Positions 30,971-35,555 of a stretch of 64,000 nucleotides of DNA are shown here, one piece after another; positions within the stretch are counted from its first letter, which is position 1; each line of letters starts with the position of its first letter. Under the pieces are notes generated by a model that did no database searches, was not told where the DNA came from, and saw nothing but the letters and a program-made list of their open reading frames with translations. A program made the position numbers and the translations under genes. Origin of the DNA: Vibrio lentus (GTDB lineage: Bacteria > Pseudomonadota > Gammaproteobacteria > Enterobacterales > Vibrionaceae); assembly GCF_030409755.1 (NCBI RefSeq), contig NZ_JAUFQE010000002.1, positions 3,635,117 to 3,699,116 on the forward strand. The letters are read 5' to 3'.

Positions 30971-31702
30971 TTATTGGAGACCGAGTTGCTCTTTTAAAGT
31001 TTTTAAGTAACGGCGACTGACAGGCACTTCAAAGCCTGTCAGGGTAATGATCTCAGCTAATCCATTCTCTAACAATTTGATCTCTTGGATCGATTTTATG
31101 TTGATCAAATATTGGCGATGACAGCGGATCAAATCGGTCTTTTCTTCTAGGATCTTCAGGGTTAACTGTGAAGTGGCGGTTTGTGATGAACTACGAACAT
31201 GCACACCGCTGATATCTGAATAAGCGCACTCGACCGTTTGGCTTGCCATGATCACTATGCGGTTGTGACCAATGCACGGGATTTGCTCTAAGTGGCAGGG
31301 AGCAATCGCTGAGATGTTTTGTTCTGGCGCTTTCTGGTTCTGCTTGATGACCTTATTCAGACGACAAACACTCTTGTTTAATCGACAAGGTTCAACTGGC
31401 TTGAGTAGGTAATCAAAGGCATTGTCTTCAAAGGCTTGAATCGCATATTGGTCGTAGGCGGTGACGAACACCACGTAAGGCATGGTGTCTGGGTCAAGCA
31501 TGCTTAACAGTTCGATACCGGTAACCTGCGGCATTTGGATATCCAAATACACCACATCCGGCTTGAGAAGGTTGATCTGTTTCAGTCCTTCGATCGCGTT
31601 ACTCGCTTGGCCAATGATTTCTACTTCACCGGTTTCAGTCAGTAGCTCAATCAGCTCTTCGCGAGCAAAAAGTTCATCATCGACAACTAATGCCTTTAAC
31701 AT
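30971..31702 (-). CDS. btsR: LytTR response regulator BtsR (YehT-like)
   Basis: A 243-residue response regulator: a receiver domain with phospho-acceptor Asp54 (VVYLDIQMPQVTG) and a LytTR DNA-binding domain (LIRCHRQYLINIKSIQEIKLL... VPVSRRYLKTLKEQL). LytTR regulators bind direct repeats about 21 bp apart. The paired kinase gene lies directly upstream, and a CstA/BtsT-type transporter lies beyond it. In E. coli BtsSR senses pyruvate and turns on the transporter btsT. The matching site array upstream of the transporter supports this assignment over YpdB. Confidence 0.88.
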   Translation of the reverse strand: MLKALVVDDELFAREELIELLTETGEVEIIGQASNAIEGLKQINLLKPDVVYLDIQMPQVTGIELLSMLDPDTMPYVVFVTAYDQYAIQAFEDNAFDYLLKPVEPCRLNKSVCRLNKVIKQNQKAPEQNISAIAPCHLEQIPCIGHNRIVIMASQTVECAYSDISGVHVRSSSQTATSQLTLKILEEKTDLIRCHRQYLINIKSIQEIKLLENGLAEIITLTGFEVPVSRRYLKTLKEQLGLQ

Positions 31703-31807: not shown

Positions 31808-33478
31808 CTATTTTAGTATAGGTATGATAAAGCTCATTCGAGTAAATTGCTGTGGTTGAGATTCTATTTTTAGTGCTGAATCTTGTCCAAAGAAATTAGT
31901 GAGCCGTTTATCAACAATCTCCATGCCTAATCCAACGTGATCTTGAGATGGCTTTTGATAATTGCCCGCGTTGTCTTCAACGATTAACTTGAATCCACCC
32001 TCGAAAGCCTCGCTATAGATCTTCACTTTGCCGCCTTCCAGCATGTTAGAAATCCCATGCTTGATGGCGTTTTCGACCAGTGGTTGCAAGGTAAAGCTCG
32101 GAAGTTGCGACTCATACAGTTGTGGGTCGATATCCCACTCCACTTCCAATCGGTCAGTAAAACGTGCCTTTTCAATGGTTAGATAAGCGTTAACATGTGC
32201 CAGTTCGTCTTTGAGTTTCACAGTGTTAATGTTTTGCTTCAGGTTACTTCTAAAGAAGTGAGACAGATGCTGAATAAGCTCTCGTGCTTTATCAGGGTCA
32301 CGACGTGTAACGGCACTGATGGTATTGAGTGCATTAAACAAGAAGTGAGGGTTAACTTGAGCGTGCAGCAGTTTGATTTCAGCTTGGGTAAGTAGTGTCT
32401 GTTGCTGCTGATAGTTACTGAATAGGATCTGACTCGACAATAGCTGAGCGATACCTTCACCCATCGACATGTTGATGGTCGAGAATAGCTTTAACTTTGG
32501 CTCATACAGCTTGATGGTACCGACCACTTCATTACCCGCGCGCAGTGGAATAATAAGCGCAGAGCCTAATTTACAATCTTGCGATAGAGAACATTGGAAC
32601 GGGTTCTCTTTGCCATCGAGGTAGATGATGTCGTTCTGTTCCATCGAGGTAAGCGTGCTTTGCGATGAAATCGGAGTGTTAGGTATGTGGTGTTCATCGC
32701 CAATGCCGACGAACGCGAGAATTTTCTCTCGGTCGGTAATCGCCACCGCACCAACATTGGTCTCTTCGTAAACGATACGTACGATTTTTTGTGCGTTATC
32801 GGAATTAAACCCACCATGCAGAATACCCACCGAACGTTCGGCAATGGTTAATGCGCGTCGAGAGAAGGTTGCAGAATATTTTTCGAAGATGGTTTTACGG
32901 TCTTGGATGATGCTCATGAACAGTGCTGCACCCACAGAGTTTGCGATGATCATTGGCGCGGCAATATCAGAAACCAGAGCGTAGGATTGCTCGAACGGTT
33001 TCGCGACGGCAAGCAAGATGATCATATGAATGATTTCAGCAAACAGGGTTACAGAGAACACCACCAGAGGATTAAACAGTTGGCTGGCTTTGTTTTTTCT
33101 CACGAGATAAACGTGTAATAGGCCGCCAATCAAGCCTTCTGCTGTGGTGGAAATCGCGCAAGCTAGATCGGTGAATCCACCCAAAGAGTAACGATGGATA
33201 CCGCCAGTAAAACCGACCGCAAAGCCGACAACCGGGCCACCAAACAAGCCACCCATGACTGCTCCCATCGCTCGGGTGTTGGCGATGGCATCATTGATCT
33301 GTAAGCCAAAGTAGGTGCCCATAATACAGAACAGGGAAAACAGAACGTAGCAGCTGATTTTATGACTTAAGCGCGAAGAGATGCTCAACAAAGGGAGAAT
33401 CAATGGGGTTTTACTTAGCATGTAAGCAATCACTAAGTAGACACAGGTTTGTTGCAGCAGAGAGAGAATGAGTTCCAT
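31808..33478 (-). CDS. btsS: Sensor histidine kinase BtsS (YehU/LytS-like)
   Basis: A 556-residue kinase. It has an N-terminal 5TM-5TMR-LYT membrane module (about 1-195, with GGLFGGPVVGFAVGFTGGIHRY), a GAF domain (about 215-345) and a His_kinase domain with HAQVNPHFLFNALNTI (likely phospho-His378). A HATPase domain with VENAIKHGISN and VGLGMEIVDKRL follows. E. coli BtsS binds pyruvate. Placed between the transporter and btsR on the same strand, it completes a local sensor-regulator-target set. Confidence 0.88.
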   Translation of the reverse strand: MELILSLLQQTCVYLVIAYMLSKTPLILPLLSISSRLSHKISCYVLFSLFCIMGTYFGLQINDAIANTRAMGAVMGGLFGGPVVGFAVGFTGGIHRYSLGGFTDLACAISTTAEGLIGGLLHVYLVRKNKASQLFNPLVVFSVTLFAEIIHMIILLAVAKPFEQSYALVSDIAAPMIIANSVGAALFMSIIQDRKTIFEKYSATFSRRALTIAERSVGILHGGFNSDNAQKIVRIVYEETNVGAVAITDREKILAFVGIGDEHHIPNTPISSQSTLTSMEQNDIIYLDGKENPFQCSLSQDCKLGSALIIPLRAGNEVVGTIKLYEPKLKLFSTINMSMGEGIAQLLSSQILFSNYQQQQTLLTQAEIKLLHAQVNPHFLFNALNTISAVTRRDPDKARELIQHLSHFFRSNLKQNINTVKLKDELAHVNAYLTIEKARFTDRLEVEWDIDPQLYESQLPSFTLQPLVENAIKHGISNMLEGGKVKIYSEAFEGGFKLIVEDNAGNYQKPSQDHVGLGMEIVDKRLTNFFGQDSALKIESQPQQFTRMSFIIPILK

Positions 33479-33751: not shown

Positions 33752-35245
33752 CTAGGCTGTTTTAGTCACTGGTTTTGGCTCTTGATCTTGCTCGTCGTCA
33801 GCTAGGTCGATATCACCTTTGCCTTTAGAAATCTTGATAACGTAAGCCGTAATCAGTAGAGATGAAACCACACCTACGATTGTTGAGATTTGCATAGGTA
33901 GACCAAAACCTAGTTGGCTGTTGTTCAGAATGAATGTGATACACACAGACGTCATGAAGATAGCTGGAACCGTTGTTACCCAGTGCAGTTTGTTGTGGCG
34001 AAGTAGGTACGCTGAAGCTGTCCACAGCATCATTACTGCTGTTGATTGGTTAGCAAAGCCGAAGTAGCGCCAGATGATACCGAAATCTACTTGAGTCAGG
34101 ATGCCACCAAGAACGAATAGCGGTAGAGCCATCAGTAGGCGGTTGCGCAGTGTTTTCTGTTCCATGTTGAAGTATTCAGCAAGGATAAGACGGCTTGAAC
34201 GGAACGCTGTGTCACCAGAAGTGATAGGTAGGATAACCACGCCAAGGAAAGCAAGGATACCGCCAAATACACCCAGTAGACCAAATGAAGCACTGTATAC
34301 CACGTTACCTGGGCCGCCGTTTGCAATCGCGTCAGACAAAGACTCAACTGAACCGAAGAATGATAGAGCAAGTGCACACCAGATTAGAGCGATGATGCCT
34401 TCACCAATCATTGCACCGTAGAATACGAAGCGACCGTTCTTCTCGTTTTCCATACAACGCGCCATCAAAGGAGACTGAGTTGCGTGGAAGCCAGAAATAG
34501 CACCACATGCGATAGTGATGAATAGAGCAGGCCAAAGTGGTAGGTCATTCGGGTTCATGTTGGTGAACATGTCTTTCATCTCGAAGCCACCCATGATTTG
34601 GTGCTCGTCAGATAGACCAATCGCAGTGATTAGGCCAACAGACATAAAGATAAGTAGTGCACCGAACAGTGGGTAGAAGCGACCAATGATTTTATCGACA
34701 GGGACAATCGTTGCGATGATGTAGTAAGCAAAGATGATAACAACCATCGTAGTTGCAGACATCGCGAAATCAGTTTGGTCGTTCACTAGGTTAGTGATCA
34801 TGCCTGCAGGAGCAGATACGAATACCACACCAACTAGAAGCAGTAGAACAATGGCAAAGATGTTCATAAAGTGTTTTGCGCCATTGCCTAGGTAACGGCC
34901 AGTGATAGTTGGAACCGAAGCACCACCATTACGGATAGATAACATACCTGAGAAGTAGTCGTGTACTGCACCTGCGAAGATACAACCTAGCACGATCCAA
35001 AGCATCGCTGCCGGGCCGTAAAGGGCACCCATGATAGGGCCGAAGATTGGACCAACACCTGCAATGTTAAGCAGCTGAACTAGGTAAACCTTTGGCGTCG
35101 ACATTGGAACGTAGTCCACGCCGTCTTGCTTGGTATGAGCAGGTGTTTGACGCTTTTCATTGATACCGAAGATCTTCTCGATAAAGGCACCGTAAATAAA
35201 GTAGCCACCAATGAGTGCTGCAACACAGGTAAGAAACCACATCAT
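33752..35245 (-). CDS. cstA: CstA/BtsT-family pyruvate or peptide transporter (short form)
   Basis: A 497-residue protein with about 14 hydrophobic segments. The family motifs VPMSTPKVYLVQLLNIAGVGPIFGPIMGA and GAISGFHATQSPLMARC are intact. E. coli CstA and BtsT are about 700-716 residues. This is the short form common in vibrios, lacking the extra C-terminal helices. CstA-family proteins import pyruvate and perhaps peptides. The BtsSR pair downstream and the BtsR-type sites upstream (35326-35555) suggest pyruvate-induced transport, so btsT could be an equally fair name. Confidence 0.85.
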   Translation of the reverse strand: MMWFLTCVAALIGGYFIYGAFIEKIFGINEKRQTPAHTKQDGVDYVPMSTPKVYLVQLLNIAGVGPIFGPIMGALYGPAAMLWIVLGCIFAGAVHDYFSGMLSIRNGGASVPTITGRYLGNGAKHFMNIFAIVLLLLVGVVFVSAPAGMITNLVNDQTDFAMSATTMVVIIFAYYIIATIVPVDKIIGRFYPLFGALLIFMSVGLITAIGLSDEHQIMGGFEMKDMFTNMNPNDLPLWPALFITIACGAISGFHATQSPLMARCMENEKNGRFVFYGAMIGEGIIALIWCALALSFFGSVESLSDAIANGGPGNVVYSASFGLLGVFGGILAFLGVVILPITSGDTAFRSSRLILAEYFNMEQKTLRNRLLMALPLFVLGGILTQVDFGIIWRYFGFANQSTAVMMLWTASAYLLRHNKLHWVTTVPAIFMTSVCITFILNNSQLGFGLPMQISTIVGVVSSLLITAYVIKISKGKGDIDLADDEQDQEPKPVTKTA

Positions 35246-35325
35246 AATTTGTTATCCCTGAATGTATTAATTAAGTCAGGGTGTATATTAAAGGAGTCGA
35301 TGAGAAGAAACTTCCGCTACTGGAG

Positions 35326-35555
35326 TGAGTGGTCGAATAGCCACTTAAGTGGTGTTATAACTGATTGAGTGGTTTGTTACGTTTATAGAGCGGTTGGTTA
35401 TTCGTGTTGAGAAGTGTCTTACTTCTGGCAAGTGGTGACTTATCAGCTTTAAGCGGTAACCAATAGATATCAGTGGCAGATAACAGACATAAGTGGACAT
35501 CAGCCAGTGTTCAGCGGAGAATTACCACAAAGGCAGCGCTTCGTCAGGAAGTGGT
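35326..35555 (-). promoter_or_regulatory. Phased array of BtsR-type binding sites (about 10 units, 20-21 bp period)
   Basis: On the minus strand the motif ACC[A/G]CT[C/T]A, the E. coli BtsR/YehT consensus, is exact at 35326-35333, 35346-35353, 35366-35373 and 35450-35457. One-mismatch copies are at 35387, 35429, 35490 and 35548, and two-mismatch copies at 35470 and 35511. Successive starts are 20, 20, 21, 42, 21, 20, 20 and 21 bp apart, about two helical turns, with one degenerate unit near 35410. The last copy (35548) falls off the phase. E. coli sites come as two copies with 13-bp spacers. The array lies 80-310 bp before the cstA-type start and ends 25 bp before the divergent lipoprotein gene. 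Confidence 0.75.

Follow-up and report, generated by a model that had tools for sequence, protein, structure and literature searches.

The window analysed here is a 64,000-nucleotide stretch taken from one end of a 3.7-Mb contig in the Vibrio lentus genome (5.9 Mb). Its minus strand carries, in this order, btsT, btsS and btsR: a btsT/btsU-type transporter gene of the CstA family (33752..35245; 497 aa; Pfam PF02554), a gene for a LytS-type histidine kinase with 5TM-5TMR_LYT and His_kinase domains (31808..33478), and a gene for a LytTR response regulator (30971..31702) that scores 363.5 bits against the NCBIfam BtsR equivalog model NF008677, for which the cut-off is 246. A lipoprotein gene with a DUF2799 domain (PF10973; 35580..35930) diverges from btsT on the plus strand, and the 334-bp gap between the two genes is the site of the repeat array described below. 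Gene coordinates and domain matches thus agree with the earlier note on this DNA, which had placed the array between the transporter and a divergent lipoprotein gene, near btsSR. Pyruvate is the presumed substrate of this CstA-family transporter, and its gene would be the orthologue of V. campbellii BtsU. By btsT, the nearest relative in a tree of 81 rows is Vibrio splendidus 12E03 (L034). The position of btsR varies among relatives: it lies about 1.1-1.5 kb upstream of btsT in six Photobacterium loci, as opposed to downstream in the window, and in many Vibrio loci it is found where the fetched flank ends on the upstream side (examples are found among loci L062, L077, L051 and L103).

The array consists of ten consecutive slots of ACCRCTYA-like sites, all in one orientation on the minus strand, with 8-bp sites separated by 12-13-bp spacers. 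The core operators, namely slot 1, nearest the btsT promoter (ACCACTCA; 35326..35333), slot 2 (ACCACTTA; 35346..35353) and slot 3 (ACCACTCA; 35366..35373), are exact matches to the consensus (TRAGYGGT on the plus strand), as is slot 7 in the extension (ACCGCTTA; 35450..35457; matrix score 11.9). One mismatch is present in extension slots 4 (ACCGCTCT; 35387..35394; score 5.8) and 6 (ACCACTTG; 35429..35436; score 9.3) and in slot 9 (TCCACTTA; 35490..35497; score 7.3). Sites with two mismatches fill the remaining positions: the degenerate slot 5 (ACTTCTCA; 35408..35415; score 2.4), extension slot 8 (GCCACTGA; 35470..35477; score 8.7) and the weak slot 10 (TCCGCTGA; 35511..35518; score 2.8). Start-to-start steps are 20, 20, 21, 21, 21, 21, 20, 20 and 21 bp, with a mean of 20.6 bp. 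The arrangement is that of a BtsR operator, in which direct repeats of ACC[A/G]CT[C/T]A stand 20-21 bp apart upstream of btsT. Four exact copies, four copies with one mismatch, nine periods, a degenerate slot near 35410 and a last copy off phase had all been claimed for this gap, and each is borne out; the fourth one-mismatch copy is the off-phase one, at 35548, 37 bp beyond the preceding slot. We excluded this copy from the array, as the nearest relative does not keep it. The degenerate slot 5 reads ACTTCTCA or ACATCTCA in 7 of 8 splendidus-type rows, a set from which L044 was excluded. The opposite strand of the gap has a single one-mismatch match to TRAGYGGT (35340) and two matches with two mismatches.

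The regularity of the array far exceeds chance. A scoring matrix trained on 63 loci, none of them from the splendidus group, gives the chain of ten slots a score of 89.9, compared to a maximum of 29.7 among 3000 dinucleotide shuffles of the gap (mean 6.8, s.d. 3.4), and the periodic signal proposed from inspection of the sequence therefore stands well above shuffled DNA. Under a stricter chain rule, which drops the two weakest slots, the array scores 84.7 and no other chain in the 64-kb window exceeds 16.8. Tandem Repeats Finder reported no repeat for the array because the spacers are unlike each other. Scans of the V. lentus genome for two-site matches returned five matches, three of them in the array (three in the backward control), and in another version three matches, two of them in the array (four in the backward control). 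The matches outside the array (L001, which falls within a coding region, L131 and L132) were set aside, being single pairs at counts near those of the backward control.

Downstream of the core, a candidate btsT -10 element (TAATAT; 35285..35290, minus strand) begins 35 bp past the end of slot 1. The pattern TANNNT occurs at this fixed offset, 35 bp downstream of the last strong site, in 75 of 81 rows, compared with only 0 to 6 rows at twelve shifted neighbouring offsets. The candidate -35 element (AAGTTT; 35308..35313, minus strand), 17 bp upstream of the -10, is weak; its first base lies 20 bp beyond that of slot 1, which puts the element in what would be the array's next slot. Apart from a common aTG at its beginning, whose T is missing in the window, the element shows little conservation, in keeping with a promoter that works with an activator. 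Relatives share a conserved AGCG (+7 to +10) followed by ATG (+12 to +14) in the interval from the last operator to the -35, at 0.8-1.9 bits (35311-35318 in the window and the same offset elsewhere). The AGCG looks like a half-site in inverted orientation, or may belong to another factor.

To describe conservation of the array we used as relatives the best 80 of 242 confirmed loci, which are all Vibrionaceae by title except L044, titled only as Vibrionales. A plain consensus scan, untrained on these loci and allowing one mismatch at most, chains of at least three sites in register and one skipped slot, recovered a chain in 77 of these 80; conservation in relatives, the lack of which would have spoken against the reading in the earlier note, is thus extensive. 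On the opposite strand the same scan found chains in none of the best 80 of 242, with 18 consensus matches there vs 466 on the array strand, and a reversed-motif control gave 144 matches and chains in only two of the 80. The three loci without a consensus chain (L052, L093 and L095) have five, six and three slots by the matrix, respectively. By matrix, all 80 loci (63 of which served in training) score above the best of 100 shuffles, and the 17 splendidus-group rows, which lie outside the training set, all carry a consensus chain. With the same proviso of 63 training loci among the best 80 of 242, matrix matches number 441 on the array strand vs 8 on the other, their pairs include 256 spaced at 20 bp and 23 at 21 bp, and removal of the three core slots still leaves 206 matches vs 4.

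The array is built around a constant core and an extension of variable length. Slots 1-3 are present by matrix in all of the best 80 of 242 loci, slot 4 in 66, slot 5 in 61 and slot 10 in 16, and strength declines with distance, from median matrix scores of 14.1, 13.6 and 13.6 in slots 1-3 to 8.7, 7.3 and 7.3 in slots 8-10. Across these 80 relatives the number of slots ranges by matrix from 3 to 11. Many species have three only, and members of the Harveyi group (owensii, harveyi, jasicida, rotiferianus and PID17_43) have nine or ten at steps of exactly 20 bp, with a weak further slot in three of the five. In a second locus set, comprising 46 examined of 49 genomes with a transporter match, 42 of the 46 exceed their own shuffles; the 80-locus and 46-locus sets share some contigs and are therefore not independent. 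In one genome (G014) the btsT match (G014:C1:471009-472490) contains one TGA and one TAA, and the three core slots still stand upstream (L116).

Three comparisons show slots beyond the core coming and going in whole units of 20 bp. V. fortis has one extra 20-bp unit relative to D404a, G009 and G030, a near-copy of the neighbouring unit; PID17_43 lacks one 20-bp unit that is present in owensii, jasicida and harveyi; and the window lacks one that is present in V. crassostreae, in an alignment that also has single-base gaps. The tasmaniensis and G023 rows differ by larger blocks. Possession of seven or more strong sites, found in 20 of the 81 rows, requires 10 changes on the btsT tree, and well-supported branches force no fewer than 7 of them. 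Sites are more constant than spacers: in the splendidus set and two other equal-register sets (8, 5 and 4 rows, 17 altogether), 98 of 110 core columns of distal slots are invariant vs 153 of 272 spacer columns (p = 9e-11, for the five most constant motif positions, with columns taken as independent and kinship ignored). L044 was dropped from this count because its three distal slots sit one base out of step. In the splendidus set, including it leaves 28 of 56 motif columns and 27 of 88 spacer columns invariant, and excluding it raises the two counts to 43 and 44. By eye, the spacers of neighbouring units look unrelated in seven arrays, V. fortis being the one exception.

Presence of the array also follows presence of BtsR, which we called by a match at E below 1e-50. 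In both genome sets together, the array beats shuffles in 78 of 79 BtsR-positive loci and in one of seven BtsR-negative loci. Within the first set of 46 genomes, the three without a BtsR match (G031, G041 and G056) have no array and 42 of the 43 BtsR-positive genomes beat their shuffles, G051 and G060 with just two slots; the sole exception (G037) has a transporter match of 46% identity. In that genome a three-slot chain (L142 3454-3523) is found downstream of btsR, near a chemoreceptor-like gene; a clear target gene was looked for near this chain and not found, and E. coli btsT likewise adjoins a chemoreceptor gene, tsr. A genus sample of 158 genomes contains five with btsT and without BtsR (G031, G090, G111, G135 and G145), four of which are without the array. 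The fifth, G135 (L146), has matrix scores of 11, 5 and 3 at the core positions -128, -107 and -87, and its total of 18.9, vs a maximum of 14.1 in 60 shuffles, counts as an array by the shuffle criterion. Because the lowest-scoring BtsR-positive array reaches 21.0 (G051), we read that of G135 as a decaying array, a putative degenerate remnant. Of the 146 genus genomes with both genes, a further 36 were fetched, picked mostly for low transporter identity, and all 36 have at least three slots; with 35 from the first set, 71 of the 146 were examined. The four clean absences in the genus (G031, G090, G111 and G145) have upstream DNA that is similar by eye and are probably one loss event, with G135 as a second in the genus; two more come from the distant genomes G041 and G056, with transporter matches 47 and 46% identical. 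The sites are very probably BtsR operators, an assignment made from sequence and already proposed in the earlier note: the motif is that of E. coli btsT, the neighbouring regulator passes the BtsR equivalog cut-off and presence of the array tracks BtsR.

We consider it probable that the array is a homotypic BtsR operator, with a core and in-register extra units, which switches on the pyruvate-transporter gene btsT and boosts its response. The three core repeats, at 20-bp steps and at a fixed distance from the weak -35 and the -10, would recruit activated BtsR together with RNA polymerase. The extra upstream repeats would allow further BtsR molecules to bind in register, each touching its neighbour head to tail, and additional bound BtsR may raise occupancy of the core, leading to a higher, longer-lasting or steeper response. 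Relaxed B-DNA has 10.5 bp per turn, on which exact 20-bp steps drift by about 34 degrees per step by simple arithmetic. From this drift, and from a core of three at uniform steps that does not pair into dimers, we infer neighbour-to-neighbour contacts. The array had been described as helically phased; over ten units of exactly 20 bp, the step seen in the Harveyi group, relaxed B-DNA would turn the sites off a common face, and the spacing constraint looks to be one between nearest neighbours rather than one of a single face along the whole array. A bolder form of the proposal, to which we give somewhat less than an even chance, is that BtsR forms a one-dimensional chain and that operator number is an evolutionary dial, in which Vibrio lineages place or remove 20-bp units before a fixed three-unit core and so tune the sharpness and duration of btsT expression. 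Under the operator reading itself, BtsR would bind at every slot, binding would be cooperative along the chain and array length would set the response; against it, some distal slots, weaker than the core and fast in turnover, may be unoccupied. With the promoter distance fixed, the natural series of 3 to 11 slots could be used to learn how the number of sites and the contacts between neighbours shape a two-component response, and it is also a test case for promoter evolution by whole-unit gain and loss in bacteria.

Alternative explanations concern the reason for the length of the array or the identity of its ligand. The distal part may serve the divergent lipoprotein gene, with BtsR repressing or activating there and the array being long as it spans two promoters, and this we regard as rather doubtful. 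A candidate sigma-70 promoter of that gene (TGGACA-17-GAGAAT; 35494..35522, plus strand) is a promoter-like match overlapped by the window's slots 9 and 10, slot 9 covering part of its -35 (TGGACA) and slot 10 sharing two bases with its -10; the match is weak, as the stretch holds 2 promoter-like sites vs 0.8 expected in shuffles. In relatives, with lipoprotein starts estimated by tblastn, the array stops 59-62 bp short of the lipoprotein start in 14 of the 17 rows of the splendidus group, irrespective of how long it is (33, 80 and 194 bp in the remaining three); among the 54 other rows that have the gene, 21 place the distal end 32-37 bp from that start. However, the core slots are kept in 9 of the best 80 of 242 loci with no such gene found in the fetched flank (5 of 6 Photobacterium, 2 of 2 Enterovibrio and 2 of 2 Grimontia), and each of the five BtsR-negative loci of the genus retains the gene next to btsT, four of these loci being without the array. 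Columns resembling a -10 or -35 at a shared distance from the lipoprotein start were sought in 69 rows and none was clear. The earlier suggestion that the array could also drive the lipoprotein gene is weak, given the persistence of the gene in the five BtsR-negative loci and of the core slots in the nine loci where it was not found. The window's slots 9 and 10 may owe their retention to the lipoprotein promoter, which BtsR bound to distal slots could hinder or help.

The extra repeats might instead be neutral by-products of 20-bp slippage, with only the core functional. Whole-unit duplications and deletions are indeed seen, and turnover is as fast as the 10 changes of the long state imply; yet the distal spacers have diverged more than the distal site cores, and a single strand and a single period are maintained, which together make neutrality unlikely. 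A sink that titrates BtsR away and does not aid activation would fit the many weak sites and the apparently single main target, with three of five own-genome matches in the array and three matches in the control, but it would need neither register with the core nor a place upstream of btsT, and we judge it very unlikely. That the sites belong to a regulator other than BtsR appears highly improbable: the same motif and steps lie upstream of E. coli btsT and the array is absent or degenerate where BtsR is missing.

The BtsR operator at btsT in E. coli has been described as two repeats. The K-12 btsT gap has four in-phase slots, at -204, -184, -164 and -143, and its chain scores 40.0 vs a maximum of 16.4 in 100 shuffles. 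Two weak slots, GCCGCTCA at -184 and GTCACTTA at -204 (L130 3457-3484), lie upstream of the two strong ones, and these outer two have, from -204 inward, 2 and 1 mismatches; two further weak sites are thereby suggested for the E. coli btsT promoter. The operator of E. coli BtsR (YehT) at btsT (yjiY) shares with the window the same 8-bp motif, orientation toward btsT and 20-21-bp steps, and differs in having four in-phase slots rather than ten. The array had been called about five times longer than that of E. coli, and it is longer, but the factor was overstated given the four in-phase slots of K-12, two of them weak.

BtsR activates btsT in E. coli, where btsT is pyruvate-induced through BtsS/BtsR, and V. 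campbellii has one pyruvate transporter, named BtsU (PMC10653868). Induction of an E. coli btsT (yjiY) promoter reporter in V. harveyi largely resembles that in E. coli, and a BtsR-type motif in V. harveyi is implied by the statement that only S. marcescens and A. hydrophila lacked the motif (PMC5552118). BtsS/BtsR/BtsU of V. campbellii and the V. harveyi system are, like that of the window, Vibrio pyruvate systems (PMC10653868, PMC5552118).

Among LytTR regulators more generally, operators are described as repeats of about 8-13 bp, about 10-13 bp apart and two or three in number (PMC11347149, PMC4847170, PMC4064291). The array falls within this geometry and, with ten slots in the window, exceeds the usual limit of two or three repeats. 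In an open literature search, judged from listings, passages and one abstract, no LytTR operator with more than three repeats was found; two or three repeats are thus the rule among the LytTR regulators described in these sources, and the array here is longer. At yhjX, the target of the sister LytTR pyruvate system, YpdB monomers bind two tandem repeats, the high-affinity site first and the second cooperatively, compared to the ten slots of the window (PMC4847170). The operators of RcoM1 and CoxC have three 8-bp direct repeats at two-turn steps of 18-21 bp, and all three are required for efficient binding and repression by CoxC (PMC11347149). They share with the array a LytTR domain in the regulator and 8-bp direct repeats at two-turn steps, and differ from it in motif, in regulators, in having three repeats at most and in that CoxC is a repressor acting over the -35 (PMC11347149). 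In its direct-repeat sites of varying length the array recalls those on which BldC forms head-to-tail oligomers (PMC5859096). BldC is a MerR-like protein and not a response regulator, and what is seen here are direct repeats of variable length; the likeness is an analogy for the mechanism only.
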